Of a stretch of 64,000 nucleotides of DNA, positions 1,802-62,095 are shown one piece after another. The DNA comes from an uncultured Dokdonia sp. (GTDB taxonomy: Bacteria > Bacteroidota > Bacteroidia > Flavobacteriales > Flavobacteriaceae): positions 310,001 through 374,000 of the forward strand of contig NZ_CANLNH010000003.1 in the NCBI RefSeq assembly GCF_947492535.1, read 5' to 3'. The notes beneath the pieces are model-generated. The model saw only the letters and a program-made list of their open reading frames with translations, was not told the DNA's origin and did no database searches. The number at the start of each line of letters is the position of its first letter. The stretch's first letter is position 1. The position numbers were made by a program, and so were the translations under genes.

Positions 1802-1821
1802 TACGCTTTCGCGAAAGCGTA
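1802..1821. repeat. Dispersed palindrome, exact 20-bp copy (intergenic)
   Basis: Perfect TACGCTTTCGCGAAAGCGTA, extended by one more paired base on each side, 4 bases after the channel gene stop and 17 bases before the TerB-like gene. There is no T-tract, so it does not look like an intrinsic terminator. Confidence 0.95.
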
Positions 1822-1838
1822 TATAAACATATCTAATT

Positions 1839-2255
1839 ATGAGTACTAATTCAAACAGTCAGTATTATACGGCATATGCAGCCATCGTAAAAATTACATT
1901 GAGAGATGGTATGGTTTCTGAAGAAGAAAATGAATTTTTAAAGCACCTTTCAGCTAAACTACATATTCGTTTAGATGAGTATCAAGATATCATGGAAAAT
2001 TATACGTATCAGGAAATTGTAGCCCCATATACCTATAATGAACGATTAAAAAGTTTGTATGAATTAACTAAAATTATTCATGAAGATACTACGATTATTG
2101 GCGAAAAACAAGCTAAATGGTTACAGCGTATAGGTACGGCAATAGGTTTTAATCCAAGTAATGTAAAATATATAACAGCAAAGGGATTAGATCTTATAAA
2201 AGAAGAAGCAGATGTTGAAGCTTTTTCTAATGGAATTAGAGGTATTAATAAATAA
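1839..2255 (+). CDS. TerB-like (TerB/DjlA N-terminal fold) protein
   Basis: This 138-residue soluble, all-helical protein has no signal peptide. The pattern ITLRDGMVSEEENEFLKHL (residues about 18-37), with an acidic EF-hand-like stretch, and a later second helical half resemble TerB domains, which are associated with tellurite-resistance and membrane-stress loci. No other ter genes are nearby, so tellurite resistance should not be assumed. It lies in a five-gene same-strand run between the K+ channel-like gene and the PagL-like gene, 16 bases before the latter. Confidence 0.6.
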   Translation: MSTNSNSQYYTAYAAIVKITLRDGMVSEEENEFLKHLSAKLHIRLDEYQDIMENYTYQEIVAPYTYNERLKSLYELTKIIHEDTTIIGEKQAKWLQRIGTAIGFNPSNVKYITAKGLDLIKEEADVEAFSNGIRGINK

Positions 2256-2271
2256 CTGATCTTTTATTAAA

Positions 2272-3414
2272 ATGAGAAACACTATTTGTATGCTTATAGT
2301 GCTTATGAGTTTTATAAGCGCCTATGCTCAAGAAACAAAAGAGCAAGAAGGTCGGTATCGTTTTGTAGAAATTAAATCTCATTTTGGCGCTTTTTTAAAA
2401 TCTGATAACCCATTAGGGAATAGTGGTATTTTAGATAATGGATATGGGGGTATTACCGTAAAATATGGATGGCAACCCATAGATCCTGATAGCTGGGCAG
2501 CACGTTATGGATATCCTTCGTATGGGATAGGCGTGTATACTGGATTTTTAAGTGATGCTCAAGTTTTTGGGAATCCTAATGCACTATTCGCATTTATGAA
2601 TTTTCCTATTTCAAATTCAGATAAACGAAATGTATTTAGTATTGAACCGTCCGTAGGTATCACCTATAACCTGAATCCTTTTGATAGTGATGAGAACCCA
2701 TTAAATGAGGCAATTGGTGCTCGTGCCGCCGTCTATTTTAATATAGATCTTGGATTTACTTATAAGTGGACGCGTGAAGTAGATCTATTATATGGATTTG
2801 ATTTTAGTCATTTTAGTAATGGTTCTACATTCAAACCTAATAACGGTCTTAATCTATATGGAATCAATCTAGGCCTGCGTTATAACTATAATGCAGATCA
2901 ATTTGAACTAGATGATGATCCTTATACAAATACCACCGTGCCAGCTCGATTTAAAAGACCCCGTAGAGCTCCTAGAGATATTACTTCTGGTAAATCTATA
3001 AGTGTTTACATTGCAGGAGGTGTATCTCAAAGTGATGCGCTTATAGGAACAAGTACGGTTTTAGGAGTAGGCTCTATTGTTGTAGATTATGAACATAGTT
3101 TTAATGAAATGCACTCTGTGACAGGGGGAGTAGATGTGTTTTATGATAATAGATTACAAGATTTAGAAGCTTCAGATCGCTTGCATTATGGAATACATGC
3201 TGGCTATGATTTTAGCTTTTATAAATTTGACGTAAAATTTCAATTAGGAACCTATATAGGAGACGATAAAGATAAAGGAGCTTTCTTTATGCGACCTGCA
3301 TTACGTTATAATTTTACAGATCGATTTTTTGCTCAGATAGGCCTTAAAACACTTGCAGGGGGTAGTGCAGATTTTATTGAATACGGCATAGGTTTTAGAC
3401 CTTTTAATTTTTAA
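2272..3414 (+). CDS. Acyloxyacyl hydrolase / PagL-like outer-membrane protein, long form
   Basis: This 380-residue protein has a signal peptide (about residues 1-19, ending AYAQ) and alternating beta-strand character throughout. The stretch around residue 180, SHFSNGSTFKPNNGLN, carries the His-x-Ser-Asn-Gly motif of the lipid A 3-O-deacylase PagL family, whose His and Ser are catalytic in the outer-membrane barrel. It is more than twice the usual PagL length: residues about 225-380 form a second barrel-like half without the motif. A paralogue with the same layout lies at 31362-32459. Membership is supported by motif and context; that it actually deacylates lipid A is inference. Confidence 0.65.
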   Translation: MRNTICMLIVLMSFISAYAQETKEQEGRYRFVEIKSHFGAFLKSDNPLGNSGILDNGYGGITVKYGWQPIDPDSWAARYGYPSYGIGVYTGFLSDAQVFGNPNALFAFMNFPISNSDKRNVFSIEPSVGITYNLNPFDSDENPLNEAIGARAAVYFNIDLGFTYKWTREVDLLYGFDFSHFSNGSTFKPNNGLNLYGINLGLRYNYNADQFELDDDPYTNTTVPARFKRPRRAPRDITSGKSISVYIAGGVSQSDALIGTSTVLGVGSIVVDYEHSFNEMHSVTGGVDVFYDNRLQDLEASDRLHYGIHAGYDFSFYKFDVKFQLGTYIGDDKDKGAFFMRPALRYNFTDRFFAQIGLKTLAGGSADFIEYGIGFRPFNF

Positions 3415-3432
3415 TTACCTAAAATAAACATC

Positions 3433-6728: not shown

Positions 6729-6778
6729 AAGTCTTTTCTGATTTTAAAGTTAATTTTTAAAGATATTTAATTTATGTA

Positions 6779-6798
6779 TACGCTTTCGCGAAAGCGTA
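6779..6798. repeat. Dispersed palindrome, exact 20-bp copy (intergenic)
   Basis: Perfect TACGCTTTCGCGAAAGCGTA with TA-rich flanks, 8 bases after the HtrA-like gene stop (read on the minus strand) and about 50 bases before the small barrel gene. Confidence 0.95.
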
Positions 6799-6806
6799 TA
6801 TTAAAA

Positions 6807-7823
6807 TCACCTTTTTAGTGTTATTATTTTTCCACGTCGTAAGATTTTGAATTCTAATGTATTATTTGGACCAATATCCTGTGCAACACTCCCTAGTTTT
6901 ACAAGCCCTTCATCAGTAAAATTTATGGGGACATTATTAACGGCTAAAATGATATCACCGCCTGCAATAATCGTTAGTTTATTTATTGAAAGCTCTATAG
7001 TACCATCTCTTAATCCAATATCACGCAAAGGAGAATTACTCGTTAGTTTTTCTACTAATAAACCACTCTCTTGAGGAACGTTAAATAAAGCAGCAAGATC
7101 TCCAGATAAAGGAAGGGAATCCATACCATTCCACAACACTGTTTTTTGAGAAAGTAACTCTTTTGTGATGTTGGAAGAAGCAGCAAAACCTATGCCTTCA
7201 AATCCTCCAGATTGCGTTTTAATATGACTTACTACACCCACAACTTCTCCTTTTAGATTAAACATGGGACCTCCTGAATTTCCTTTGTTTATAGCTGCAT
7301 CTGTTTGGATGAATTCTGAACGAGAAAATGGATTTTGCCCTTGTATATTTTTAAGTTTTCCACTCACATATCCAGAGGATAGCGAATGTTCTAATCCTAG
7401 TGGTGCGCCTACAACAAAGATCCGTTCTCCTATGTTAAGAGCGTCTGAATCTCCCCAAGGAACAGTTACAGGGTCAAATCTTGGAATGATTAATTTGATG
7501 AGTGCAATATCTGCTGTTTCGTGAACCGTAATGACCTTTGCAGGAGAGGATGTACCATCAGAAAAAGAAATTGTCACACGTTCTGCAAGATTTACGACAT
7601 GTGCGGCGGTTACAATCTCTCTATCGGAAATCATAAAACCAGATCCAAGGCTTTTTCCAGAAATCTTCTGTAATTGTACCCCATCAGATACGCGATTACT
7701 TTGCTCTGTATAAATGGTGACTACCGCTGGGTTTACTTGTTTGTATATTTCAGAAAGGTCTTGCGCGCTTAACGATACTGAAAACAATAGACATATTATA
7801 GTTGTAAGAAAAAGGTTTTTCAT
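6807..7823 (-). CDS. HtrA/Deg-like secreted serine protease with PDZ domain
   Basis: This 338-residue protein has a signal peptide (1-20, ending LSAQ) and a trypsin-like domain with the complete triad: His75 (TAAHVV), Asp105 (TADIALIK) and Ser183 (NKGNSGGP). A single PDZ-like domain occupies about 250-338. It is shorter than DegP (about 470 residues, two PDZ), and so closer to DegS in layout, but it has a cleavable leader rather than an obvious anchor. Such proteases degrade or sense misfolded periplasmic proteins. The gene sits 15 bases downstream of the CoA-transferase gene, though no functional link is evident. Confidence 0.9.
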   Translation of the reverse strand: MKNLFLTTIICLLFSVSLSAQDLSEIYKQVNPAVVTIYTEQSNRVSDGVQLQKISGKSLGSGFMISDREIVTAAHVVNLAERVTISFSDGTSSPAKVITVHETADIALIKLIIPRFDPVTVPWGDSDALNIGERIFVVGAPLGLEHSLSSGYVSGKLKNIQGQNPFSRSEFIQTDAAINKGNSGGPMFNLKGEVVGVVSHIKTQSGGFEGIGFAASSNITKELLSQKTVLWNGMDSLPLSGDLAALFNVPQESGLLVEKLTSNSPLRDIGLRDGTIELSINKLTIIAGGDIILAVNNVPINFTDEGLVKLGSVAQDIGPNNTLEFKILRRGKIITLKR

Positions 7824-10979: not shown

Positions 10980-13900
10980 TTACGTTTTTTTAGCTTCAAA
11001 TACTTTATTTCTATAGTACGCTATTAATGATACTAGCACTACAATAGCAATTAACACATAAATAAATGTAGGAATTGGAATCGGATCTCCTGCAGCATAA
11101 CTATGTAACCCTGATAAATAGTAATTTACGCCAAAGGATGTCATAATGATAGAGCCAAAAGCAAATACACTAACCATATTCAATATAAAATTACTTTTTA
11201 AAGCAGGTATCAAACGTAGATGTAGTACAATTGCATAAACGATAATACTTATTAGTGCCCAAGTTTCTTTAGGGTCCCATGCCCAATAACGTCCCCAAGA
11301 CTCATTAGCCCAAATACCGCCTAAAAAGGTGCCTACTGCTAGTACAAATAAACCCATTGTCATGGCAATTTCATTAATATAGGTAAGCTCCTTAATCTTA
11401 ATATTGATAACATCTTTGGTTTTATCTGTTCTTATGATGATAAGAAGCAATGCCATAAAACCTAATACAGCAGATAGTGCTAGTGGCGCATAACTACTTA
11501 CAATAGTGGCAACGTGTACTTTTAGCCAAAACGATTTAAGTACAGGCATTAAATTTGTGATTTCAGGACTTAACCAGTCTAGGTAACTTACAAATAACAG
11601 CGCTCCAGTAAATAAGGTGGCAAGTGGTAACGCAAAGTCAGATTTTCTAAATGTAATCAAGCCACACAGTAGTAAAACCCATGCGACAAAAACAAGCATT
11701 TCATACCCATTACTCCAAGGTGCATGCTGCGCTACATACCAACGTAGGATAATATTTCCTGTAAAAAGCAAGAAACTGATAAGTGTTATGATGATGGTGA
11801 GATTCCATACAATGGTAACCCCTTTTGCTTGTTTGAATATTTTAATGATGGCTATTAATAGCAGCACAAATCCAAGTGTAAAGAATACTTGAAACAACCA
11901 GAAATTTAGATTGAGTTCGTTATACCATAGCTCTGCAGCAATGCGTTCTTCACTTGGGATAATTTCTTTACCCAAGACATCTTGAAACTTCTTAATATAC
12001 GTTAGATCCTCAAAGGCTTTCTCATAATCCTTTTTAATTAAAGATGTAAAATATTGAGGAATAATTCCCTGAGCAAAGCGCCCGTCTTCTGGAGGGAAAT
12101 CCTTGAAATCATGAGAATAGCTATGCCATTTATTGGTTGCATCAAGACTATTCGGAAATACTTTCAAGTAATTACCTGAAAACACATTGTATAAAATATT
12201 AAAACGTTCATCTACTTTAAGCACTTCTTTATCAAATTCAGAACGTTCAGCAGGTTTTTTCTTATTTACTTTTTCTACTTCTTCAGCGAGGAGATATACT
12301 TCGTCATCATCCAAGAAACTAGAGAAAGGGACAAGTCCGTTATCACTTACGGATAGCTCTTTAAAAAGCGCTCCACCTTTCTCTAAGTCGACTTTAATGA
12401 CAGGAATGTCTTGCCAAATATTTGGATTTACATGCATTGATAGGAATGCTTGATTTGCATCCATTTCAATGGTTTCTCCATCTTGTATAAGTTTATAATA
12501 TGGCTTTCGCGAAAGCTTTCTCAGAAACTCTGACGCTAGCGTATTTACTGGTTTTATACGTCCGTCGAGATCTTGAACCATCAAACGACCAAACAATTCG
12601 GCGTGATTTTTATCAATACGTTGTTGCTCTATGACTGCCTTTGTAATACCCGACCAAGGAGCCGTTTGTGCATTCGTATAAGAGGAAAAAGATAGACTCA
12701 AAAATGCAACAATTGCTGTTTTTGTTTTTAATTTCTTTAGTTTTTTATTGATGGTGGCATAGCGAGATTTCTTGCCAAATAATGTAAAAAACATTCCTAG
12801 CCCCATAAACAAATATCCAAGATAGGTGATAGCAGTACCAAGCACATCGTGATTTACAGCGAGGACCGTACCTTTCTCATCGGTATCATAACTAGCCTGA
12901 TAAAACCTATAACCCCCATAATCGAGTACATTATTCATAAAGATGCGATAAGGCATTTCTACATGTTCAGTTTTGTCTAGAACAGTAACCTCACTGGCAT
13001 ATGCAGAGGGACTTGTAGATCCTGGATAACGCTCTAATTGGAAATCGTTTAAATGTACCTCAAAAGGAGTTTCTATAGCTTCAGCACCATACGAAAGGTT
13101 GATCTCTAAATTACCCATTTTTGCCGTGTGTTCACTAGGTAAGAAACCATCTCTGTATAACATCGTGATGGTTTCAGTAATATCACCTATAGTGACATCT
13201 ACTTTGACAGCATCGTCCTTTATCTCATCGTTATCTTTAGGTTTATCGGCAAGACTTACTAGTTCTAATTCGCCTTTTGGGTAATAGATCATAGGCACAA
13301 AAGAAGCATCTCCATCACGATACAAAGTTCTAATCACAAGAGGATATACACTATCTTTTTTAATGGTACTTGCTGTTTGTGTTGCCATGACGAAGTTGCC
13401 TAGCTCACGAGGTGTTTTGATAAAGAGTTCACCATTATTCTCAGAAATAGTAATAATATCATCCCTATTTACGTCAAACCCTATTAGATGTTGATGTTCA
13501 CCAATAGCTTCGATTTCACCTTTTTCTAGAAATACATTTTGACGGCCATTACCAGCGGTAACAACCATTTCGATCATAGGTTTTCCATTAGGGCTGTTTT
13601 CTTTTACTTGAGGAATGGCATCTGCAATAAAATCATTATGCGTGATGGTTACGGCAGTATTATTAATATCTGTAGTAATTGTAAAGTCATTATTACTAAT
13701 AGGGGAGTATTCTATTTTTTTACGAACCGTACGTGTATTTGTTCCATCAGAGATTTTTGCTGTTAGATAATTTGCATCAGATATAATCACGTTAGAACTG
13801 GCACCTTCTCGTATACGCATAATTCCGCCGTATGAGCTGTATCTAGTAATTCCTGCGCCTAATAAAATGACAATAAATGCTAAGTGAAACATCAATAAAG

Positions 13901-14129
13901 GCCATTTTTCTTTACGCCATAAGCTGTATTTAAAAGTGTTTAAGAAAAATGAAATTCCTAACCCTACCATCACCATTTCAAACCACCATGCATCGTAAAT
14001 AACTTTCCAAGCGGTGGCTGTACCATAATCATTCTCTACAAAAGTGGCGACAGCCATGGATGAGCCAAAAACGAATAAGAGCAAAACAGCAAGACTCGGA
14101 GAAGAAAGAAAACGGTATAGTTTATTCAT
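10980..14129 (-). CDS. ccsBA: CcsBA (ResB-ResC fusion), system II cytochrome c synthase
   Basis: This 1049-residue protein fuses the CcsB/ResB part (N-terminal membrane helices, large periplasmic region) to CcsA/ResC. The heme-handling tryptophan-rich WWD-type signature WGRYWAWDPKETW lies at about residues 945-957, between C-terminal membrane helices. CcsBA exports heme and attaches it to CxxCH motifs of apocytochromes in the periplasm. It lies downstream of nrfA and nrfH, which encode multiheme cytochromes, so it is probably their dedicated or shared maturation enzyme; CXXCK-type hemes often need a specialised synthase. A copy of the dispersed palindrome encodes residues Leu-Ser-Arg-Lys near 540 in the periplasmic part. 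Confidence 0.93.
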   Translation of the reverse strand: MNKLYRFLSSPSLAVLLLFVFGSSMAVATFVENDYGTATAWKVIYDAWWFEMVMVGLGISFFLNTFKYSLWRKEKWPLLMFHLAFIVILLGAGITRYSSYGGIMRIREGASSNVIISDANYLTAKISDGTNTRTVRKKIEYSPISNNDFTITTDINNTAVTITHNDFIADAIPQVKENSPNGKPMIEMVVTAGNGRQNVFLEKGEIEAIGEHQHLIGFDVNRDDIITISENNGELFIKTPRELGNFVMATQTASTIKKDSVYPLVIRTLYRDGDASFVPMIYYPKGELELVSLADKPKDNDEIKDDAVKVDVTIGDITETITMLYRDGFLPSEHTAKMGNLEINLSYGAEAIETPFEVHLNDFQLERYPGSTSPSAYASEVTVLDKTEHVEMPYRIFMNNVLDYGGYRFYQASYDTDEKGTVLAVNHDVLGTAITYLGYLFMGLGMFFTLFGKKSRYATINKKLKKLKTKTAIVAFLSLSFSSYTNAQTAPWSGITKAVIEQQRIDKNHAELFGRLMVQDLDGRIKPVNTLASEFLRKLSRKPYYKLIQDGETIEMDANQAFLSMHVNPNIWQDIPVIKVDLEKGGALFKELSVSDNGLVPFSSFLDDDEVYLLAEEVEKVNKKKPAERSEFDKEVLKVDERFNILYNVFSGNYLKVFPNSLDATNKWHSYSHDFKDFPPEDGRFAQGIIPQYFTSLIKKDYEKAFEDLTYIKKFQDVLGKEIIPSEERIAAELWYNELNLNFWLFQVFFTLGFVLLLIAIIKIFKQAKGVTIVWNLTIIITLISFLLFTGNIILRWYVAQHAPWSNGYEMLVFVAWVLLLCGLITFRKSDFALPLATLFTGALLFVSYLDWLSPEITNLMPVLKSFWLKVHVATIVSSYAPLALSAVLGFMALLLIIIRTDKTKDVINIKIKELTYINEIAMTMGLFVLAVGTFLGGIWANESWGRYWAWDPKETWALISIIVYAIVLHLRLIPALKSNFILNMVSVFAFGSIIMTSFGVNYYLSGLHSYAAGDPIPIPTFIYVLIAIVVLVSLIAYYRNKVFEAKKT
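12503..12516. repeat. Dispersed palindrome core inside ccsBA
   Basis: Exact 14-base core GCTTTCGCGAAAGC within the coding sequence, read as Leu-Ser-Arg-Lys on the minus strand, in the variable periplasmic part of CcsBA. Confidence 0.95.
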
Positions 14130-14178: not shown

Positions 14179-14241
14179 AATGCTATGAAGTTACATATTC
14201 AATAGGTGAACCATGTAACCCAAGGGTATTATGTTTTTTAT

Positions 14242-14255
14242 GCTTTCGCGAAAGC
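14242..14255. repeat. Dispersed palindrome core (intergenic, nrfA-ccsBA)
   Basis: Exact GCTTTCGCGAAAGC in the gap between nrfA and ccsBA. The outer pairs are imperfect (TAT on the left, GTA on the right). Confidence 0.95.
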
Positions 14256-14318
14256 GTACTAAAAAAATAAAATACTGTCGCGAGATGATCAATGTAATGG
14301 TACTATATATAATTGTAA

Positions 14319-16455: not shown

Positions 16456-17733
16456 TTATTGTTTAAAATTTGTAAAGAGCGTAGGGTTTATTATAAGTCT
16501 TGCCCATGCCCAGTTATTCGTATTATCATTTGGTCTATTATCCCTAATTAAACTCATACTTTCTGAAGCAAAAAGATGTGAGTACCCGATGTTTAAAGTT
16601 ACGTCTTTTATTAGTTTTTGAGTAAAAACTACGTCTATTTCTGTACCTAAATAGGTGTCAGCATTATTTAATAATTCAGCATTAGAAGAGAAATAGTGAA
16701 TTTTAGTCAATAGACTAGACTTTTCAGAAGTTTTAAATACCGCTTTCGCGAAAATATCATTAAGACCAACGTTATTTGCATGATTACCTACAAAAAAATA
16801 ATCCATATACCCATTGAATTTGTGATTGGTACCATAAAGAGGGAAAAAGGATTTGTTTCTTGAATCTCCCGCTTGATCTGTACCACTTAGCAATTCTAAT
16901 CCTAGACCATATAAATGTTTAGTAGGTTTATATGTAGCTTCTAGCATTGCTTGATATGCGTTTAATTTAGTGTTGTTGTTATCTCTACCAAATTGATAAT
17001 AGGCACTTCCTGAAATTTGTAGCGATTTTAGTGGAAACTTAAAGTATGTTCCCGTAGTCTGTCTGTAAAGAACACCATCGGGTGTTTCTTGTCCATCTAC
17101 AATTTTAAAATCTTGAAAACCTGAATTTAAGAATAAGAAACTTGCTTGTATGTTATTCCATTCTTTATGGAGGTGAGCAAATTGCATTGTTTTATATGTA
17201 AATGCGTCTTGAAGAAAAAAGCCGTTTCCTTCGTTTGAAGGACGTTCTTGATTAAAAGCAAAGCCTATATCTGTCTTGAATGTTTCATTTTTGTATTTTA
17301 TAAGAGCTACGTCATGAGAGCGTCCTTGCATTGCCCAGTCTAATCCACCTAAAATACGTTGATCGTCATAAGAGAGTACTTGTCTTCCTAATTTTGTAGA
17401 CCACTTTGAATCAATTTGATACGCTACCCATGCTTGGAAAAGTGAAAAAGAATCATTACCATCTATAGGTGATATTTGTGGAGTATCTCCCCAAATACTG
17501 ACATCTTGAACACTCACCATGAGTTGTAATTTTTCTAATCCGTAGCTAATATTGAGTCGTGTACGTTGTTGCACAAAAACGCCTGGTTCACCATTATCAG
17601 GAAAAAGATTTCCAAAACCATGGCGATATTCAAATCGAGGTCTAATATCTGCATCTATTGTTAGTTGTCCGTACGTTGATACTACTGAGAATAGTATACA
17701 GATTAATGTTAGGAGTAGTCGATGGTTAGTCAT
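16456..17733 (-). CDS. Alginate-export/porin-like outer-membrane barrel, first gene of nrf unit
   Basis: This 425-residue protein has a signal peptide (1-22, ending TYGQ). It opens with DADIRPRFEYRHGFGN, a typical start of alginate_exp-family barrels, and shows amphipathic strands throughout. It does not end in an aromatic residue (FTNFKQ). The family makes 18-strand monomeric porins. Being first in the operon with nrfH and nrfA, it may admit nitrite or another anion to the periplasm, but this is inference. A degenerate copy of the dispersed palindrome encodes Phe-Ala-Lys-Ala near residue 328. An inverted repeat lies 8 bases upstream of the ATG. Confidence 0.8.
   Translation of the reverse strand: MTNHRLLLTLICILFSVVSTYGQLTIDADIRPRFEYRHGFGNLFPDNGEPGVFVQQRTRLNISYGLEKLQLMVSVQDVSIWGDTPQISPIDGNDSFSLFQAWVAYQIDSKWSTKLGRQVLSYDDQRILGGLDWAMQGRSHDVALIKYKNETFKTDIGFAFNQERPSNEGNGFFLQDAFTYKTMQFAHLHKEWNNIQASFLFLNSGFQDFKIVDGQETPDGVLYRQTTGTYFKFPLKSLQISGSAYYQFGRDNNNTKLNAYQAMLEATYKPTKHLYGLGLELLSGTDQAGDSRNKSFFPLYGTNHKFNGYMDYFFVGNHANNVGLNDIFAKAVFKTSEKSSLLTKIHYFSSNAELLNNADTYLGTEIDVVFTQKLIKDVTLNIGYSHLFASESMSLIRDNRPNDNTNNWAWARLIINPTLFTNFKQ
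16742..16753. repeat. Dispersed palindrome, partial copy inside the nrf porin gene
   Basis: GCTTTCGCGAAA matches 12 of the 14 core bases; the last two are changed (AT for GC). It is read as Phe-Ala-Lys-Ala in the porin. Confidence 0.75.
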
Positions 17734-18005: not shown

Positions 18006-18079
18006 TAGCGAGAACGAGAATTGAACTCGTGACCTCCGGGTTATGAATCCGACGCTCTAACCAACTGAGCTACCTCGCC
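18006..18079 (-). tRNA. tRNA-Met (anticodon CAT)
   Basis: A 74-base cloverleaf: acceptor GGCGAGG/TCTCGCT with G-T pairs at both ends, D arm GCTC...GAGC, anticodon loop TTCATAA, T arm ACGAG/CTCGT, discriminator A, and no encoded CCA. The anticodon stem has an A-C opposition at 31:39. It is most likely elongator Met; a CAT tRNA-Ile modified by lysidine cannot be excluded. Confidence 0.92.
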
Positions 18080-23225: not shown

Positions 23226-23276
23226 AATGTGTTGTTTTTATAGTGTTAATTTTGATTGACAGGGTAAAAGTATGTG

Positions 23277-23296
23277 TACGCTTTCGCGAAAGCGAA
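23277..23296. repeat. Dispersed palindrome (intergenic)
   Basis: Exact 14-base core at 23280-23293. The 20-mer has one outer mismatch (GCGAA for GCGTA). It lies between the divergent DUF2141 and TPR genes, in a 273-base gap that otherwise shows nothing clear. Confidence 0.93.
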
Positions 23297-23498
23297 CAAA
23301 ACCTTCTGAACTGTCAAAAATTAGGATTGAACTGTAGTAGTACCCTTATTTCTGCCAAAAACTGAAATCTGCTGCCGTCTGTTCGCATTTTTTCCTTTCG
23401 GCTTGATTGTTGAATGTTCATTACTATGTTGACAACTCTTAGTATGAAGAATAGCATAACACTAAAACATTGTTAAATTTATACTAATACATAAATGA

Positions 23499-38636: not shown

Positions 38637-40331
38637 CTATCTTGCGTACTTACGTTTTCGAATGGTGAAAAATAGTACGCCAAAAATGAAAATAAAAATC
38701 AACGGAAGCCCTATGGTTAAGGCTTGCCACTTGTTTATAGTATCAGCAACTTTTGGAGTATCTAAAAATGGGAGTGCAATCTCTTTGCTTCGTATGTTAA
38801 TAAGACCATTATCGTCGAGAAGATAATTGACTGTGTTTAGCAAAAACTCTTTATTTCCGTATTGTTTTCTAGTAAAATAATCAAAACCTAATTCTAAAGG
38901 ATTCCCTTTACTGTCAACATCATTTGCGATAAGATCACCATCTGCAATCACTACCATTTTAGATGGGTTAATTGCGCTTTCGCGAAAGCGTATACTATCC
39001 ATTTTAAAGGGTAGAACTCGATTTTTAAATGCAGATTCAAAACTCCCTTCTAAGAGAACCGCAAGCGGTTGTGGTCCTGCTTGATAATCTTGCTCATTTG
39101 GTTCAATAGATATTTCGTCTAGGGATATTTCTTTGGGAGTCCCTTCAAGTTTAGTAAGGATACTGGATGATAATAAAACCGTCTTCTCTAGAGAAGAGGT
39201 ATTATTGAGCAGTTCTATCTGATTGGCATAATTAAAACGTACAGGGCGTTCTATATTAGTATTGATAGGATGTGTGTTAAAAGAAGGAGTAACCGGCTGA
39301 TAAAACCAAGGAAGTTGTTGGTACTTTGATTGGCTTCCATCACCTGAAGCAAGACTTAAAGGTGCGGAATATAAGTCTTTAACTAACACAGGGTTAATGC
39401 GAATGCCATATTTAAAAAACTGATCATTTAAATTCAAGTCCCTAGGAAAGGCCAATGCTTTTCCATCTGGATTTCGCAAGCTGTCGTTTTCCATGGCTAC
39501 TGCATCAATAAGCCATAAAGAATTACCACCGCTAAGGGTGTATTGGTCTAAAACAAATTTTTGTGCATCTGTAAATGCTTTGGTTGGTTTTGCTACAACA
39601 ACTAGATCAAAAGTATTTTGTAATGCTCGTAAGGCTCTTTCAGGGTTTTCAGATACCGCACTCATTGGAAACGGAGCGATACTATAGGTCTCACCTAGTT
39701 TGCGAAACATATCTGCAATCTTAGCATCTGGTAATTCGCCATTATCTTTTAATACGGCAATGCGCTTGGTTTTTGCATTTAATATGCGATTGAAGCCATC
39801 TATAAATGCATATTCTAGATTTTGAATAGAAGCATACACAAATTGTTCAGGAGAAGCGCCTGCAATATTTTTTATAAGTGATATGGGGATGGCTTTTCCA
39901 TTATGGTTTGCTGTTGCCCATGGATACAGTGTCTGCGTTTTTTTTTCGCCATTACGTTTTACAGTAAGTGGGAGCGGAGCCATACCAAAACTAGCAAATT
40001 GTTGCGCAACGATACTCGCATCAGCGCCATCTTCAACTGGGTTTGAAATCGCAAAGGATACATTAGGATTATAATTTGAAATCTCTTCCAGTAAATAACG
40101 TGTTTCGTTTTGAAGTTTTCTAAACTCTGGCTGAAGGTCTCCTTCTAAAAATACATCTACAATAAGCGGACTTTGAATTTGATCTATCACAGCTTTTGCA
40201 GGATCGCTTAAGGTGTATCTTTTATCTTGAGTGAGATCATACCGCTTGTGAAAAAAAGACGCTGCATAATTAATGCCTATCAGAATAATGATAGCAGGAA
40301 TAAGAGCGGGTATTTTTTTAAACGTTTTCAC
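38637..40331 (-). CDS. gldG: GldG, gliding-associated ABC transporter component
   Basis: This 564-residue protein has an N-terminal anchor and the family opening INYAASFFHKRYDLTQDKRYTLSD (about residues 20-43). A large extracytoplasmic region follows, with a C-terminal membrane helix and basic tail. GldG works with GldF and the ATPase GldA in the gliding/type IX secretion-linked ABC transporter. The start is GTG at 40331, which lies inside a degenerate palindrome copy. An intact palindrome core at 38976 encodes Arg-Phe-Arg-Glu-Ser. It follows gldF by 9 bases. Confidence 0.93.
   Translation of the reverse strand: MKTFKKIPALIPAIIILIGINYAASFFHKRYDLTQDKRYTLSDPAKAVIDQIQSPLIVDVFLEGDLQPEFRKLQNETRYLLEEISNYNPNVSFAISNPVEDGADASIVAQQFASFGMAPLPLTVKRNGEKKTQTLYPWATANHNGKAIPISLIKNIAGASPEQFVYASIQNLEYAFIDGFNRILNAKTKRIAVLKDNGELPDAKIADMFRKLGETYSIAPFPMSAVSENPERALRALQNTFDLVVVAKPTKAFTDAQKFVLDQYTLSGGNSLWLIDAVAMENDSLRNPDGKALAFPRDLNLNDQFFKYGIRINPVLVKDLYSAPLSLASGDGSQSKYQQLPWFYQPVTPSFNTHPINTNIERPVRFNYANQIELLNNTSSLEKTVLLSSSILTKLEGTPKEISLDEISIEPNEQDYQAGPQPLAVLLEGSFESAFKNRVLPFKMDSIRFRESAINPSKMVVIADGDLIANDVDSKGNPLELGFDYFTRKQYGNKEFLLNTVNYLLDDNGLINIRSKEIALPFLDTPKVADTINKWQALTIGLPLIFIFIFGVLFFTIRKRKYAR
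38976..38989. repeat. Dispersed palindrome core inside gldG
   Basis: Exact GCTTTCGCGAAAGC (CGCTTTCGCGAAAGCG with one extra pair), read in the third possible frame as Arg-Phe-Arg-Glu-Ser. Confidence 0.95.
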
Positions 40332-44972: not shown

Positions 44973-45314
44973 TTACAAAATAGATTTAATATTTGAGGGT
45001 GGACGTCCAATAATTGCCTTTTTTCCATTAACAACGATAGGTCTTTGTATGAGTTTAGGATGCGTAGCAAGTGCTTTTATAATCTCATTATCAGTTAGTT
45101 TTTTACCCTTGTAGCTTTCTTTCCATATGGTTTCATCTGTACGAACCAATTCCATAGGTTTAATCCCTAAAGTGTCAATAAGTCGTTCTAGCGTAGGAAC
45201 AGGCAGTTGCTCGTCCATATATTTTATAATTTGGAAAGGTTTGCCAGAAGCTTCAACAATGGCTAATCCTTCTCGGCTTTTTGAACATTTTGGGTGGTGG
45301 TAGATTTTAATCAT
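44973..45314 (-). CDS. arsC: ArsC/Spx-family arsenate reductase-like protein
   Basis: This 113-residue thioredoxin-fold protein opens IYHHPKCSKSREGLAIVE, carrying the single catalytic-type Cys10, and includes QRPIVVNGKKAIIGRP near residue 90. These are the marks of the glutaredoxin-coupled ArsC family (reduces arsenate to arsenite). Some family members act on other substrates, and no ars transporter or ArsR regulator is nearby, so detoxification is unproven. A palindrome core lies just upstream (45324-45337), 10 bases before the start. Confidence 0.88.
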   Translation of the reverse strand: MIKIYHHPKCSKSREGLAIVEASGKPFQIIKYMDEQLPVPTLERLIDTLGIKPMELVRTDETIWKESYKGKKLTDNEIIKALATHPKLIQRPIVVNGKKAIIGRPPSNIKSIL

Positions 45315-45323
45315 AATGGGTTT

Positions 45324-45337
45324 GCTTTCGCGAAAGC
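45324..45337. repeat. Dispersed palindrome core (intergenic, arsC-HAD)
   Basis: Exact GCTTTCGCGAAAGC, 10 bases upstream of the arsC start and 25 bases beyond the HAD gene stop. Confidence 0.95.
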
Positions 45338-45361
45338 GTACTAAAATTAATGGGTTATTAT

Positions 45362-48373: not shown

Positions 48374-48418
48374 TTGTTTATAACTGTTTATATTTTGTAA
48401 GAGAGGATTTCTAATTCT

Positions 48419-48432
48419 GCTTTCGCGAAAGC
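48419..48432. repeat. Dispersed palindrome core (intergenic)
   Basis: Exact GCTTTCGCGAAAGC, 41 bases before the metalloprotease start. Confidence 0.95.
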
Positions 48433-48472
48433 GTACAAACCACTATCTTAGGTCTCTTCAAATTTAAGCGAT

Positions 48473-53251: not shown

Positions 53252-53280
53252 GATTATATTCTATATAATCAGCCAAATGA

Positions 53281-53311
53281 AAAGGCGTTTCTTCATTGAA
53301 ACGCCTTTTTT
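53281..53311. terminator. Terminator after the OmpA-family gene
   Basis: 11-bp stem AAAGGCGTTTC / GAAACGCCTTT with a TTCATT loop and a T-run on the plus strand. Confidence 0.92.
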
Positions 53312-53352
53312 ATATTTTAAGTTTATTATTTAAAAAGATTATTTCTTAGTAT

Positions 53353-53366
53353 GCTTTCGCGAAAGC
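53353..53366. repeat. Dispersed palindrome core (intergenic, convergent genes)
   Basis: Exact GCTTTCGCGAAAGC between the convergent ompA-like and aminotransferase genes, separate from the terminator hairpin 42 bases away. Confidence 0.95.
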
Positions 53367-53386
53367 GTATATAAGAGGATTAAAAG

Positions 53387-54575: not shown

Positions 54576-56393
54576 TTATCCATCTCCTTTTTTCTTCTTC
54601 TTTTTCGGGTTTAATTGGCTAGGAGAACTCTCTTCTTTGGAAGAGGAAGTCGCTTTATTCCGATTTATAAGATATTCTCTTTGGCGTTTTGTGATTTCAT
54701 CTTCTTCTTCCGTACCTATTTTGGGTTTATCTTCCTCTCTATTTGATAATTCATTTTCTGATAAATTGGAGGCGCTTGGTTTTTCTGGCCCATCTTCTTC
54801 AGATTCTTCAAAGAAGTCACTATCTATGACAGGCAAGGGAATACCTTGTATTTTTGTTAACGTAAATGGAGGTTCTCCTTTAAAAATATCCTCTTTACTA
54901 AGGAGGCGTTCGTCTCCTCGCCATTCAAAATTTTCAAAGGTTTGCTGTTGTAATATAAATTGAGATTCTGGCCAAATGTTACCGCCAGGGTTTTTATATT
55001 TTATAACTTCATCTATCGCTTTATCTACAAATAGAATAGTAATAGAAGCAGATTTGCTTTTGTCAATACCTTGTAGCTCTCCATTCTCTTCTCGCATATA
55101 TACAATACTCTCTGCATTATTCAGAATATTAACCGAGTCTAACTGATTTTCCTTATTGAAAAATCCATAGAGTTTTTGCCCTTTTACCTGATTAAACCCA
55201 TCTATAGAATCTTTTTGAATGATAAATGCATTATTAAACACTTTTAAAGAGTCTAGTTTTTCAGTAATCGCATCATTAATAAGATGTATACTATCTCCCG
55301 TAATTTGATTTTCATCACTCCATAAGATGGGCCTTCGTATCATTTGTGTAAGTCCTGTTTTTTGGTTGATATGAATAGAATCACATTTACCACTCATATC
55401 ACTTTTAAACATACGTACATTATAATAGCCTCTTACAATTCTATTTTCAGGTTTTCCAGTAACAATAAGCTTATCCCCATGTACATAAATAGAATCGCCT
55501 TCTTGCTCAGTAATTGCAACCGCTCGTTGCGTGATAAATACAGAGTCTTTGTCTCTAAATACTTCTGCATAATGCCCTTTAATAAGGCTTTTATTGAGCG
55601 TGTCTTTTACTCTAATATTATTAGTGGCACTAGCGTAATTTCGAGTCCTGTCAAAATAAAGACTATCTCCATAAACTTGCCGATTATCATAGTCTATTCG
55701 TGATTTTTTCACAAAATATCCATAATCGTTTTTAGTATCATAAAAGCCTCGTTCACAATATACTTTTGAAGCTTCACTAGTGATGGTGGTAGGACCGTAT
55801 AGGTACGCATGTTCAGTTTCACTATAAAAATCTAATTGCTCGCTATTGATCACATATTCAGGGTTTGTAACCTCTACATTACTGATAAATGATATTTTAT
55901 CTTCTTCAAGATAATAACGCCCTATACGACTTGTGATTTTGCTATTAGGAGAGGTTACTATACCTCCTGTGCGATAATAAGATTGCTGTTTATTACGATC
56001 AAAATACATGGTGTCTGTAGTAACGACTGTTGTGTCTTTTTTCAGCCATACATCACCCGCAGCAAATGCAAATTTGGTATCTCCACTGTATTCTGCATAC
56101 TTACTACGCATCGAAACAGAATCTCCCTGTTTCATTTTTACATTTCCTAAAGCTTTTACAAAGTTTTCTTCTTTGTAATGAAAGGCAATATCACACCACA
56201 TTTCAACACCTTCATGTGATATATATACTTGCTTTTTTCTCTTATATAAAATAACGGCACCAGGATATTCAACTTCATTTTTTTCTGTGACATCAGAAGT
56301 GATGTCAATCTCTTTACGTTCTTCTTGCGTATACGCTTTCGCGAAAGCAAAAACAGCAATAAGTAACGTAAGTATGTATTTTTTGATATGCAT
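54576..56393 (-). CDS. OstA/LptA-like protein whose signal-peptide end is encoded by the palindrome
   Basis: This 605-residue protein has a signal peptide and repeated short beta motifs of the OstA/LptA/LptD-N type (YAEYSGDTKFAFAAGDV, AEVFRDKDSVFITQRAVA). The C-terminus is low-complexity, acidic and Lys-rich. It is probably an envelope protein of lipopolysaccharide transport. I take the ATG at 56393 (MHIKKY); the longer frame starts at a TTG at 56411. Residues 16-20, AFAKA, give an Ala-x-Ala cleavage site exactly at the signal-peptide end (then YTQ), and are encoded by the exact palindrome core. Confidence 0.8.
   Translation of the reverse strand: MHIKKYILTLLIAVFAFAKAYTQEERKEIDITSDVTEKNEVEYPGAVILYKRKKQVYISHEGVEMWCDIAFHYKEENFVKALGNVKMKQGDSVSMRSKYAEYSGDTKFAFAAGDVWLKKDTTVVTTDTMYFDRNKQQSYYRTGGIVTSPNSKITSRIGRYYLEEDKISFISNVEVTNPEYVINSEQLDFYSETEHAYLYGPTTITSEASKVYCERGFYDTKNDYGYFVKKSRIDYDNRQVYGDSLYFDRTRNYASATNNIRVKDTLNKSLIKGHYAEVFRDKDSVFITQRAVAITEQEGDSIYVHGDKLIVTGKPENRIVRGYYNVRMFKSDMSGKCDSIHINQKTGLTQMIRRPILWSDENQITGDSIHLINDAITEKLDSLKVFNNAFIIQKDSIDGFNQVKGQKLYGFFNKENQLDSVNILNNAESIVYMREENGELQGIDKSKSASITILFVDKAIDEVIKYKNPGGNIWPESQFILQQQTFENFEWRGDERLLSKEDIFKGEPPFTLTKIQGIPLPVIDSDFFEESEEDGPEKPSASNLSENELSNREEDKPKIGTEEEDEITKRQREYLINRNKATSSSKEESSPSQLNPKKKKKKGDG
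56335..56348. repeat. Dispersed palindrome core at a signal-peptide cleavage site
   Basis: Exact GCTTTCGCGAAAGC, read on the minus strand as Ala-Phe-Ala-Lys-Ala at residues 16-20 of the OstA-like precursor. Confidence 0.95.
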
Positions 56394-58305: not shown

Positions 58306-60516
58306 TTATAATCGAGTGACTTTGTCAATTCCGTTGATTTTTTTAAGATTATCCATTAACTTTTTAAGATGCTCCTTATTTTGAACTATTACCGTAATAT
58401 TTCCATTAAAAATACCTCCATTAGTTGTAAAACTTATGCTCTTGATATTTACGTGCATATGATCAGAAATCTCTTTTGTAACTTGATTTACAAGTCCTAA
58501 ATTATCAATTCCTGTAAGGCGAATATCTACCTTATGTCCTTGAGCACTTGAGTCTATCCATTTGGCAGGAATCACTCTGTATGCATATTTACTGCGCAAA
58601 GAAATAGCATTTGGGCAATTGTTTTTATGAACTTTAATGCCTTCATTAATGGTGGTGAAACCAAATACAGGATCTCCAGGTATTGGATTGCAGCAGTTTG
58701 AAAACTTATAATCTAATTTTTGTTCATCTACCCCAAAAACAAGATCATCATATTTATTGGTAATCTCATCACGGTCTACATTTTCTACAGTGGTAGGTTT
58801 TCTGATTTTATTTTTAAAGAAGCTCACAAATGCGTTACTGCGTTGGGCTGCAAATTCCTTAATCATTTTATTGTCAATAGTCCCAATGCCTACTCGATAA
58901 AAAAGATCTAAACTCGTATTTAGTTTAAAGTAAGAGACGAGTTCGTTAATAGTCTTTTCATTAAGTTGAATTTTTTGTGATTTTAGCTTTCGCGAAAGAA
59001 TAACTTTTCCGTCTGCCGCTGTTTCTTTTTTCTCATCTTTTAGAGATGATTTAATTTTGGCTCTAGCCCTAGCTGTTGTAGCGTAGTCTAACCAGTTATT
59101 TGTTGGTTTGGCTTGCTCTGAGGTAATGATTTCTACTTGATCGCCACTTTTTAACTCTTGACTTAATGGCACTAATTTACCATTCACGCGAGCTCCTCTA
59201 GTATGTAGCCCAACTTCTGTATGTACACTAAAGGCAAAATCCAATGGGGTAGCTCCTTTGGGTAGCGATTTAAGATCTCCTTGTGGAGTAAATACAAAAA
59301 TCTCTTTATTATATAAATTGAGCTTGAAATTTTCTACAAAATCGACGGCATTTGTATCTGGATTTTCAAGTGCTTCTTGGAGTCTATTAATCCATTCATC
59401 AAGTCCTTTATCACCATCATCGCCTTGTTTGTACTTGAAATGGGCTGCATACCCTTTTTCGGCAATTTCATTCATACGTTCAGAACGAATTTGCACTTCT
59501 ACCCATCTCCCTTTAAGTCCCATTACTGTAATATGTAATGCCTCATATCCTGTAGATTTAGGAGATGAAATCCAATCTCTTAAACGAGTAGGGTTGGGTC
59601 TAAAGTGATCTGTAACAATAGAATAAATCTTCCAAGCTAAGAATTTCTCATTGGCAACATCACTTTTGTAGATAATACGTATCGCAAACTTGTCATAAAT
59701 CTCATCAAAATTAATCCCTTGATTCAAGATTTTACGACGGATACTATAGATAGATTTAGGACGACCTTTAATTTCGTAATTAAGACCTTCAAGATTAAGG
59801 GAATCTTCAATTACTTTTTTAAAATCCTTTATGTATTTGTCTTGTTCTTCTTTACTTTCTTTGATCTTGTCTTTTATATCTTGATATACTTCTGGTTCTG
59901 TATATTTAAGACTTAAATCCTCAAGTTCCGTTTTGATGTTATAAAGCCCCATTCTATGAGCAAGAGGGGCATAGATATATAAGGTCTCACTAGAGATTTT
60001 TGTTTGTTTGTCTGGTCTCATGGCATCCATCGTTTGCATGTTGTGCAAACGATCTGCTATTTTAATAATGATAACCCGAGGGTCTTCATTAATAGTTAAT
60101 AGCATCTTTCTGAAATTTTCAGCTTGCAATGAGACATCTCTATCCTTTTTTAAGTTGGATATTTTAGTGAGCCCATCTACAATACGAGCAACAGTTTCTC
60201 CAAAAAGTTGTTCAAGATCCACCAGTGTATATTCAGTATCTTCTACAACATCATGTAGCAATGCAGATGCAATTGATGTAGCGTCTAATCCTATTTCACT
60301 AGCGACAATCTGTGCTACAGCAAGCGGATGAAATATATACGCTTCTCCAGACTTACGACGCTGGTCTTTATGCGCATCTACAGCAATATCAAAAGCCTTT
60401 CGGATCATTTTCTTATCCTCAGTAGTAAGCGTTTGATAACTGATGCGCAGTAATTTCTTATACTGGCGTGTAAGCTCTTTGTTTTCGGCTTCTATGTACT
60501 CTTGGGTCAGTTCCAT
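58306..60516 (-). CDS. Bifunctional (p)ppGpp synthetase/hydrolase (RelA/SpoT)
   Basis: This 736-residue protein has an HD hydrolase domain (HPLAVAQ, HDVVEDTEYT with His-Asp at 88-89), a synthetase domain (SPKSTGYEALHI near 320-330), TGS (FVFTPQGDLKSLPKGAT, about 405-466) and a C-terminal ACT domain (about 660-736). An intact HD suggests both synthesis and hydrolysis of the stringent alarmone. A palindrome variant at 58986 encodes Leu-Ser-Arg-Lys at residues 507-510, just after the TGS domain, in a linker. It leads the run relA/spoT, fur-like gene and purA. Confidence 0.95.
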   Translation of the reverse strand: MELTQEYIEAENKELTRQYKKLLRISYQTLTTEDKKMIRKAFDIAVDAHKDQRRKSGEAYIFHPLAVAQIVASEIGLDATSIASALLHDVVEDTEYTLVDLEQLFGETVARIVDGLTKISNLKKDRDVSLQAENFRKMLLTINEDPRVIIIKIADRLHNMQTMDAMRPDKQTKISSETLYIYAPLAHRMGLYNIKTELEDLSLKYTEPEVYQDIKDKIKESKEEQDKYIKDFKKVIEDSLNLEGLNYEIKGRPKSIYSIRRKILNQGINFDEIYDKFAIRIIYKSDVANEKFLAWKIYSIVTDHFRPNPTRLRDWISSPKSTGYEALHITVMGLKGRWVEVQIRSERMNEIAEKGYAAHFKYKQGDDGDKGLDEWINRLQEALENPDTNAVDFVENFKLNLYNKEIFVFTPQGDLKSLPKGATPLDFAFSVHTEVGLHTRGARVNGKLVPLSQELKSGDQVEIITSEQAKPTNNWLDYATTARARAKIKSSLKDEKKETAADGKVILSRKLKSQKIQLNEKTINELVSYFKLNTSLDLFYRVGIGTIDNKMIKEFAAQRSNAFVSFFKNKIRKPTTVENVDRDEITNKYDDLVFGVDEQKLDYKFSNCCNPIPGDPVFGFTTINEGIKVHKNNCPNAISLRSKYAYRVIPAKWIDSSAQGHKVDIRLTGIDNLGLVNQVTKEISDHMHVNIKSISFTTNGGIFNGNITVIVQNKEHLKKLMDNLKKINGIDKVTRL
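58986..58998. repeat. Dispersed palindrome, 13 of 14 core bases, inside relA/spoT
   Basis: GCTTTCGCGAAAG followed by A. It is read as Leu-Ser-Arg-Lys in the linker after the TGS domain. Confidence 0.88.
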
Positions 60517-60664
60517 ATCAATAACTAATGTACTGCTTTATATGTAATAGACAAAGCAAAAAGTATTCCCTTATTAACAATGTCATACATAAAGTGAAGA
60601 AAACATTAATTTTTGGTGTACGCGTGACGATTACTATTTGTTATCTTCGTCGAAAAGTTCATAC

Positions 60665-61609
60665 ATGAGTATATTTTATGTCCTAATTGGATTGTTGTTA
60701 TTAGTAGTAGGAGGGGAGTTTCTAGTACGCTCTTCTGTAGGATTGTCTTTTAAGCTTAATCTTTCTAAGATGGTAATTGGGCTTACCGTAGTTTCTTTTG
60801 CCACGTCTGCTCCAGAACTATTGGTAAGTTTACAAGCAGCTTATGACGGGCTCTCAGATATTTCACTTGGTAATGTAATAGGCTCTAATATTGCTAATAT
60901 AGGATTGGTATTAGGAATTACGGCAATCATATCTTCATTAACAGTAGATCGTGATTTTTATCGTTTTAATTGGCCGGTTATGTTGCTGTTTTCTATTGCG
61001 TTATATTTTTTATTGAAAAATGATGAGCAACTATCACAGACTGAAGGAATAGGCTTAGTGAGTTGCCTCATTATTTATCTTTTTGTATTGATACGAAGAG
61101 CACGTAAAAAGAAACAAGTAGATGAAGACGGTGTAGATGACGGGCTTGCTCAAAGTTCTTATTTTAAAATTTTCATTTGGCTAGCTATAGGAGGAACCGC
61201 ATTGTATTTTGGTTCTGAATGGCTTGTTAAGGGCGCTACAGAACTAGCTAAAGCTGTTGGAGTTAGTGATTATGTGATTTCTGTGACAGTTATTGCTATA
61301 GGGACGAGTGTCCCTGAATTAGCAGCTTCTGTTATTGCAGCGCTTAAGAAAGAAAAAGCTATCTCGTTAGGAAACCTTATTGGGTCTAATATTTTTAATA
61401 TTGCTTCAGTATTAGGACTTACCGCTATTATTAAACCGATTTCTGTAGTAGATGATGCCATTTTATCTACAAATATCTTCTGGATGATTGGGTTTGCGGT
61501 TATTCTCTTGCCTCTGGCATTTATACCAAAACGATTACAATTATCCCGATATAAGGGATTGATTCTTTTTGTTGCCTATGTTGTATTTGTAGGATTTACT
61601 TTCTTGTAG
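60665..61609 (+). CDS. Calcium/sodium antiporter (CaCA family, YrbG-like)
   Basis: This 314-residue protein has about ten helices in two inverted halves, each with the alpha-repeat motif: VSFATSAPELLVSL and NVIGSNIANIGLVLG, then AIGTSVPELAASVI and NLIGSNIFNIASVLG. These form the cation site of Na+/Ca2+ exchangers. I use the ATG at 60665 (MSIFYVLIG); the longer frame starts at a TTG at 60638. It exports Ca2+ or similar cations. An unknown gene begins 3 bases after its stop. Confidence 0.93.
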   Translation: MSIFYVLIGLLLLVVGGEFLVRSSVGLSFKLNLSKMVIGLTVVSFATSAPELLVSLQAAYDGLSDISLGNVIGSNIANIGLVLGITAIISSLTVDRDFYRFNWPVMLLFSIALYFLLKNDEQLSQTEGIGLVSCLIIYLFVLIRRARKKKQVDEDGVDDGLAQSSYFKIFIWLAIGGTALYFGSEWLVKGATELAKAVGVSDYVISVTVIAIGTSVPELAASVIAALKKEKAISLGNLIGSNIFNIASVLGLTAIIKPISVVDDAILSTNIFWMIGFAVILLPLAFIPKRLQLSRYKGLILFVAYVVFVGFTFL

Positions 61610-61612
61610 ATA

Positions 61613-62038
61613 TTGAGAAAAACCAAATACATAAAACTATTAGAATATTTTGGTATTCCTAATAGATGGAGTCGATTAAACGCCTCCTATATATTGGAAT
61701 CCAAAATAGTATTTTTTGAAAAGATTAAAGGGTATTATTCTAAGAGTGTAAATGGAGGTGTTCCAGATACTATTATTTATGAAATAGCTGAAATTATAGC
61801 TAATTATCAATACGATTCCTACCGAAACTTCTGGAAAAAATACCCGAAATCTAGAAAACGATACTCAATATTTGATACTAAAGATTTGAATAGTCCTTAT
61901 GTATATTGGAAGATCATGGATCATCTTAAAATAAAGTACCCTGATATGTATGAAAGGTATGCTTGTGCTATTCTAAATAGTAATAAGGAAGCATTAATAG
62001 AACTAGAAAAAAGAAGAGATTTATACGATACAAAGTGA
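61613..62038 (+). CDS. Unknown protein with TTG start, coupled to the antiporter
   Basis: This 141-residue basic, mostly helical protein (MRKTKYIKLLEYFGIPNRWSRL) has no signal peptide, membrane helix or recognisable motif. The only start between the antiporter stop (61607-61609) and the coding stretch is the TTG at 61613, and the next Met is residue 102. Translation from the TTG fits tight coupling to the antiporter gene. I do not recognise the family. If it is not translated, the frame would be an accidental 140-codon opening, which is less likely at this base composition. Confidence 0.6.
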   Translation: MRKTKYIKLLEYFGIPNRWSRLNASYILESKIVFFEKIKGYYSKSVNGGVPDTIIYEIAEIIANYQYDSYRNFWKKYPKSRKRYSIFDTKDLNSPYVYWKIMDHLKIKYPDMYERYACAILNSNKEALIELEKRRDLYDTK

Positions 62039-62075
62039 TATGATTAATTAAAATCCCTAGTGTGATATGCCTTTA

Positions 62076-62095
62076 TACGCTTTCGCGAAAGCGTA
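62076..62095. repeat. Dispersed palindrome, exact 20-bp copy (intergenic, convergent genes)
   Basis: Perfect TACGCTTTCGCGAAAGCGTA between the unknown gene and the GSII terminator; core 62079-62092. Confidence 0.95.

Follow-up and report, generated by a model that had tools for sequence, protein, structure and literature searches.

A repeated palindrome of Dokdonia genomes as a candidate DNA uptake sequence

A 64,000-nucleotide stretch of the genome of an uncultured Dokdonia sp. (assembly GCF_947492535.1, contig NZ_CANLNH010000003.1, positions 310,001 to 374,000; this whole stretch is referred to as the window) contains 12 exact copies of the 14-base palindrome GCTTTCGCGAAAGC, and the question it raises is what keeps such a word there. 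The copies amount to 1 per 5.3 kb, and each of 100 dinucleotide-preserving shuffles of the window contained 0. The genome as a whole (4.86 Mb) contains 827 exact copies and 0 copies of the reversed control word. The above-chance abundance proposed in an earlier note on this DNA therefore stands, and the copies are not confined to transcript ends. The best reading is that the motif is a palindromic DNA uptake sequence (DUS), which we hold with about as much confidence as doubt. It is put forward because the excess of the word, its mismatch profile, its conservation at the DNA level, its permissive locations, its even spacing and its soft flanks all resemble those of DUS, and because there are flavobacterial and dyad-symmetric precedents.

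Abundance of the motif in related genomes and in the window

Exact copies were counted in 59 genomes consisting of the genome containing the window (own genome) and its relatives. All 18 Dokdonia genomes contained the motif in 369–905 copies; one genome of genus g11 had 578, one of genus g13 had 6 and the remaining 39 had none. Among 299 genomes of the family, 61 had at least one match, five of them with hundreds of copies (two Dokdonia, two g11 and one of genus g210) and 56 with 1–19. The three rich genomes from the two non-Dokdonia genera, g11 and g210, carried 408–664 copies each, and the other sampled Flavobacteriaceae 0–19. The 10-mer TTTCGCGAAA, counted across the phylum in 395 genomes, had 1094 copies in the own genome compared to 21 for the control, and at most 29 in any other.

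Word over-representation and mismatch profiles were determined in samples of 464 and 400 kb. Words belonging to the motif were the most over-represented 10- and 12-mers in the samples from the own genome, Dokdonia genome G016 and genome G230, the last of which contained additional repeated words; no 12-mer reached the cut-off of 10 counts in the samples from G065, G082 and G184. Exact copies outnumbered forms with one mismatch by 80 to 13 in the own genome and by 104 to 10 in G016. Over-representation fell 311-fold (own) and 494-fold (G016) from zero to one mismatch, and 17- and 12-fold at the next step. For the uptake sequences of Haemophilus and Neisseria, drops of 92- and 82-fold followed by 9- and 7-fold have been reported (PMC1939737). 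An over-represented top word with a steep mismatch fall is a property of DUS and of uptake signal sequences (USS), and the motif has it.

Two further aspects of the distribution were examined. A search of 80 glnII loci for dialects of the motif elsewhere in the family yielded, besides the motif, only low-copy A+T-rich repeated palindromes such as ATTTTGCAAAAT, with 10 copies over 9 loci. A single origin was not supported by RecA trees, in which the bearers required 3 changes; the well-supported branches alone were compatible with one origin.

All 12 exact cores in the window are present at the positions given by the earlier note, which had described the unit as a 20-bp palindrome occurring about once per 4 kb. 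The full 20-mer is exact at 1802, 6779, 31308 and 62076, has one mismatch at four places and two at three, and differs from the copy at 12503 by more than three bases. As the 20-mer is exact at four places only, the unit is the 14-mer with a softer TAC...GTA edge rather than a fixed 20-mer. The density of one per 4 kb is reached only if variants are counted. Of the variants that had been named, those at 33565, 58986 and 16742 were confirmed, and those given as 40322 and 45991 were recovered only at three mismatches to the 14-mer, at 40324 and 46011. Gene calls were made with a simple longest open reading frame (ORF) script; on this basis eight copies lie between ORFs and four inside them, in agreement with the note. 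The features are as follows, with no strand assigned to the palindrome and with the extent of the putative 50-bp footprint that is described below.

1805–1818, exact 14-mer, intergenic between co-directional genes; footprint 1787–1836
6782–6795, exact 14-mer, intergenic between co-directional genes; footprint 6764–6813
12503–12516, exact 14-mer, inside ORF 10980–14129 (minus strand; CcsB-type C-terminal part), frame LSRK; footprint 12485–12534
14242–14255, exact 14-mer, intergenic between co-directional genes; footprint 14224–14273
16742–16755, variant with two mismatches, the last two bases differing
23280–23293, exact 14-mer, intergenic between divergent genes; footprint 23262–23311
31311–31324, exact 14-mer, inside ORF 30562–31365 (minus strand) near its 5' end, frame TLSRKR; footprint 31293–31342
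33565–33578, variant with one mismatch
38976–38989, exact 14-mer, inside ORF 38637–39983 (minus strand; alternative start 40331), frame RFRES; footprint 38958–39007
45324–45337, exact 14-mer, intergenic between co-directional genes; footprint 45306–45355
48419–48432, exact 14-mer, intergenic between co-directional genes; footprint 48401–48450
53353–53366, exact 14-mer, intergenic between convergent genes, past the classical terminator at 53279–53310; footprint 53335–53384
56335–56348, exact 14-mer, inside ORF 54576–56393 (minus strand) near its 5' end, frame AFAKA; footprint 56317–56366
58986–58999, variant with one mismatch
62079–62092, exact 14-mer, intergenic between convergent genes, just past the glnII terminator at 62140–62107; footprint 62061–62110

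At the copy starting at 12503, the motif-lacking ortholog of G065 has KVSRK where the window ORF has KLSRK. The window also contains two tRNA genes, at 18006–18079 and 36016–36089, both on the minus strand.

Conservation in place and form of the site

The motif is held in place between species. All 14 bases were retained in 216 of 229 aligned directed interspecies comparisons, compared to 13% of other 14-mers; for pairs near 75% identity, background retention was mostly 3–7%. Because alignments may favour conserved spots, the comparison was repeated by orthologous gene or gap. On this basis, 80 of 92 directed comparisons of genes and 145 of 172 of gaps retained the motif, from pairs that are overlapping and not independent. 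For the own genome and G230, which are about 59% identical, one of three genic copies was retained. In 44 aligned genic windows the five encoded residues were kept in 38, and the DNA word was identical in all 38. For other conserved pentapeptides, sampled from gene pairs by a one-in-three draw, the DNA was identical in fractions of 0.28, 0.075 and 0.064 in three identity classes.

The protein segments that surround genic copies are themselves poorly conserved. Excluding pairs of at least 97% identity, the conservation of flanking residues was 0.51 compared to 0.68 for the remainder of the gene. Among 49 pairs, drawn from 26 genes, 40 had the lower conservation next to the motif (p about 1e-7, with pairs that are not independent). 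From these data we conclude that the copies are located in fast-evolving gene segments. Conservation of the word itself, at permissive places within genes as well as in gaps, is another property of DUS and USS, and permissive location combined with conservation has been reported for the Neisseria DUS (PMC2397512).

About half of the copies are genic (44 of 80 in the own genome and 52 of 104 in G016, from called genes) and fall in all three reading frames; the remaining 36 and 52 are intergenic, although only 10–14% of that sequence is non-genic. This intergenic excess, the palindromic form and the presence of hundreds of copies are what would be expected of a mobile repeat of the repetitive extragenic palindrome (REP) or miniature inverted-repeat transposable element (MITE) type, the first of which the earlier note had listed as an option, or of a transcription terminator or other RNA hairpin. 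For a mobile repeat, the conserved positions and the genic half of the copies argue otherwise. Ten of 139 genic copies had a motif-lacking ortholog that qualified for comparison (with a single hit taken per protein, an identity of 35% or more and the alignment spanning the motif). Seven of these ten aligned without gaps, for example EDPARFRESVQ with the motif-lacking EDPDRFREMVQ, and three, which count in favour of a mobile repeat, lay in or beside gapped stretches. Searches for the REP-transposase family PF01797 were negative for the own genome, for G230 and for 10 of the 12 Dokdonia genomes searched; the family does occur in both g11 genomes and in G012 and G015. As a terminator the motif fares no better. 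The earlier note had placed the copies away from classical terminators; in the region scanned (44–64 kb) those at 53353 and 62079 lie just past one, but no copy among the five in this region was flagged as a terminator. The REP/MITE and terminator or hairpin readings are already largely refuted, and we regard them as extremely improbable.

The form of the site was examined in 247 pooled Dokdonia copies (126 intergenic and 121 genic, from related species and so not independent, with G016c, G003 and G230 excluded). Outward of the core the preferred bases were C (0.88 and 0.76), A and T. Beyond these, C was depleted on the 5' side and G was depleted in mirror image on the 3' side as far as about position 25; the preference was gone by position 27, and position 15 was tolerant. 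The 5' flanks were rich in G and T, and base preferences were alike for genic and intergenic copies. Complementarity of the arms at positions 11–25 was as expected under independence (664 compared to 645.4, and 554 compared to 562.8). This lack of covariation led us to reject an extended hairpin, and points instead to a pair of half-sites that a protein would bind on duplex DNA. The base preferences suggest a putative symmetric protein site of about 50 bp on duplex DNA.

The same data bear on a methylation target, which the earlier note had considered with TCGCGA as its core. An iterated palindrome linked to a DNA methyltransferase would be comparable to cyanobacterial HIP1, which is likewise palindromic, genome-wide, both genic and intergenic, and lineage-bound (PMC4390886). 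Outside the 14-mer, TCGCGA was only about twofold over expectation (47 compared to 23.6, and 44 compared to 19.8), which makes a six-bp methylase site a poor fit, and a 14-bp core with a preference spanning 50 bp is larger than the site of a methylase. We consider a HIP1-type palindrome very unlikely.

Three genes illustrate how individual copies are maintained. The glnII protein of the window is 99% identical to that of Dokdonia pacifica. Of 17 Dokdonia genomes with glnII, 14 have an exact copy downstream of the gene, beyond the terminator and 59–116 bases from the last matched codon; the site is decayed in G001, and none is present in G012 and G010. In G005 (loci L089 and L175), the copy downstream of glnII is followed by further fragments, GCGAAAGC and GAAAGCGTATAC, which give this region a rearranged or duplicated appearance. 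Within comEC the 14-mer occupies one codon position in 16 of 16 Dokdonia genomes (15 fetched and G016) and in G230; comEC of G065 and G018 lacks it. All 11 Dokdonia genomes compared at recA have a copy upstream of it, as do both g11 genomes at another place; it is absent upstream of recA in G230 and 15 other genomes.

Uptake, chromosome organisation or self-marking

Copies are more evenly spaced than chance. The coefficient of variation of the spacing was 0.75, 0.63 and 0.69 compared to 0.97–0.98 for a Poisson process, few intervals were shorter than 1 kb, and the density was about one per 4–6 kb. In the own genome, a 13-kb segment without an exact copy (G000:C1 340907–354058, L051) consists mostly of co-directional small genes, including that for ribosomal protein L2. 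Larger Dokdonia genomes had hardly more copies than smaller ones (r 0.26, not significant) and a lower density (rho −0.80, p 0.0016), as determined from rounded sizes of the 12 genomes listed as at least 99% complete.

Even spacing, a copy number that hardly varies with size and a symmetric footprint on duplex DNA would also suit a chromosome-organising site, at which a nucleoid or segregation protein binds the palindrome of about 50 bp as a symmetric dimer at about 400–900 evenly spread sites. Such a cell-internal function would also allow carriage by temperate phages. The density in two regions of G016 speaks against it: 56 copies in 1–200 kb and 48 in 1.6–1.8 Mb, about half a chromosome apart, are similar numbers for regions that would be origin- and terminus-side, judging from parB at 3.136 of 3.294 Mb. 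A Noc-like ParB paralog was rejected, as 12 of 13 bearing genomes searched have one ParB_N gene and only G011 has two. In addition, hundreds of firmly held genic and intergenic sites would be easier to explain under a uniform drive. We consider chromosome organisation unlikely, though it is the main competitor of the uptake reading.

The motif is also found on mobile DNA. The viral scan used an extended pattern because matches to the bare 14-mer included chance ones, for instance on a contig of 55% G+C. The extended motif was present on 8 IMG/VR contigs, in 11 stretches. Several of these contigs share flanks; one has an integrase hit, and another, with portal, major head and tape-measure hits, has at least four copies in 29.6 kb. 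By these genes and shared flanks the contigs look like one temperate tailed-phage group (loci L441, L313, L271, L289, L440 and L442). A 34-mer query had no match in the plasmid collection, and in the phage collection it matched only two Mycobacterium prophage records over 17 bases (expect value about 4), which were taken as chance. In six genomes with few copies, 12 of 13 fetched stretches were mutually homologous, with 70–97% identity (L187–L194 and L196–L199). The four proteins examined were RND pumps (the resistance-nodulation-division type), an outer-membrane efflux protein and a multicopper oxidase, and the shared stretches in six genera of the family are probably metal-resistance islands. 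Mapped island copies were mostly genic, often in pump genes, and several had TTTCC...GGAAA-like edges. An uptake sequence would be expected to be enriched in core DNA and rare in DNA acquired recently. On this point the evidence is divided: density declines with genome size, yet the phage group and the islands bear the motif, and a long gap contains arginine-biosynthesis genes (see below).

Presence on phage contigs and transferred islands is what a Chi-like or self-marking site would predict. Such a site would steer a nuclease or recombination enzyme inside the cell and protect both own and phage DNA, with the palindrome working in both directions. The context of Chi is GT-rich, of which the G/T-rich 5' flanks are reminiscent, and the copy upstream of recA in all 11 Dokdonia genomes also fits. 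Chi sites themselves are non-palindromic, short and strand-skewed, and a symmetric 50-bp footprint is unlike a site read on a single strand; moreover, the recA copy is absent from G230. We judge a role of this kind improbable.

According to the uptake reading, the best fit among the four options of the earlier note, the motif would be a self-DNA tag on double-stranded DNA for a natural-transformation receptor. The putative receptor would be symmetric, either dimeric or two-headed. Each half-site would comprise a rigid GCTTTCG half and a C-poor flank of about 18 bp, so that the whole tag would be a palindrome of about 50 bp, identical from either side. Tagged fragments would be preferentially taken up and recombined, perfect-tag alleles would repeatedly replace decayed ones, and this replacement would accumulate and maintain the tag where the genome is permissive. 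We infer three things here: that a protein binds the motif, that this protein is the uptake receptor, and that uptake bias maintains the motif.

Candidate genes for transformation are present in the bearers. ComEC was found in 21 of 21 bearing genomes searched, and DUF5689, a family that includes a surface protein needed by Riemerella for transformation, in 14 of 14. Transformation in flavobacteria of the same class proceeds without a known pilin, and one of them prefers its own DNA (PMC8459023, PMC7965970); in Simonsiella, overlapping DUS pairs are reported to occur in dyad symmetry (PMC3630211).

Several observations weigh against an uptake sequence. ComEC is also present in 5 of 5, and DUF5689 in 15 of 16, of the motif-lacking or few-copy genomes searched; therefore this machinery does not discriminate the bearers. 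A co-inherited receptor of the DUF5689 family was not supported: the bearers do not form a group in its tree (3 changes), g11 lying with G025 and G026 and G230 with one Dokdonia. The comEC genes of both g11 genomes lack the motif. Near-matches with up to two mismatches exceed the control in G082 (69 compared to 8) and G184 (86 compared to 20); exact copies there are few (6 and 9), and the stretches fetched held only 3 and 1 near-matches. The motif is sparser than the Neisseria DUS, for which a spacing of about 1.1–1.5 kb is given. A motif-free gap of 25.7 kb in the own sample includes at least two arginine-biosynthesis genes, and gaps are therefore not restricted to accessory DNA. The temperate-phage group, seen in several metagenomes, carries the motif and its flank preference at host-like density, and this carriage would fit a cell-internal role at least as well as uptake. 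A chromosome-organising protein or a Chi-like mark would suit both the phage carriage and a receptor family that does not follow the motif better. Finally, no paper on competence in Dokdonia was found in the open-licence literature. As a separate observation on the DUF5689 tree, the protein of Dokdonia G012 (L428) groups with that of G230 (L426), with support of 95/92, away from other Dokdonia.

Judged by title and start of abstract, none of the papers listed in searches of the open-licence literature describes the motif. To our knowledge, the only families for which self-specific uptake sequences have been established are the Neisseriaceae and Pasteurellaceae. We tentatively propose, with somewhat more doubt than confidence, that the motif represents a third independent family: the first in Bacteroidota, the first whose unit is always a palindrome of about 50 bp, read by a pilin-less outer-membrane DNA receptor of flavobacteria that would act as a symmetric dimer, and a mark of self common to several genera and to temperate phages. 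Whether uptake sequences are a selfish drive or an adaptation is stated as an open doubt in PMC2397512, and an unrelated uptake sequence in marine Bacteroidota, if that is what the motif is, would provide an independent test. The transformation genes so far found in a relative include no pilin (PMC8459023). Should the motif have another role than uptake, hundreds of sites kept letter for letter with a symmetric 50-bp preference would still point to a DNA-binding system for which our literature searches yielded no description.

Comparison with known systems

REP elements are palindromic, enriched between genes and associated with RAYT transposases. The motif shares the first two properties, but half of its copies are genic, its positions are conserved, and PF01797 is missing from most bearers searched. 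The parS and Noc-binding sites are palindromes of 14–16 bp of the type TTTC..GAAA, which the motif resembles; it differs in having two bases fewer between the arms, in its hundreds of copies and in the single ParB-domain gene of nearly all bearers searched. Among the pieces scanned the canonical parS word was seen only in the motif-lacking G065 sample, and the parS of Dokdonia was therefore not located.

USS are not palindromic, and the flank preference of the motif differs from theirs in being symmetric and consisting mainly of a lack of C on the 5' side. The Haemophilus and Pasteurellaceae USS resemble the motif in combining a rigid core with softer AT-tract flanks, the full-length USS being 31 bp in the model cited (PMC7811141). 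Cyanobacterial HIP1 is, like the motif, a highly iterated palindrome confined to a lineage; it is 8 bp long and tied to GATC and CGATCG methylases according to PMC4390886, whereas the motif has a 14-bp core with a 50-bp preference, and TCGCGA alone is hardly enriched. There are also parallels with the Neisseriaceae DUS, which likewise occur in hundreds to thousands of copies, in permissive places, highly conserved and with a steep mismatch profile (PMC3630211, PMC2397512 and PMC1939737). In comparison with these, the motif is unrelated in sequence, always palindromic and sparser, and has a putative footprint of about 50 bp. Membership of the DUS family is not claimed; the motif most likely works like a DUS.

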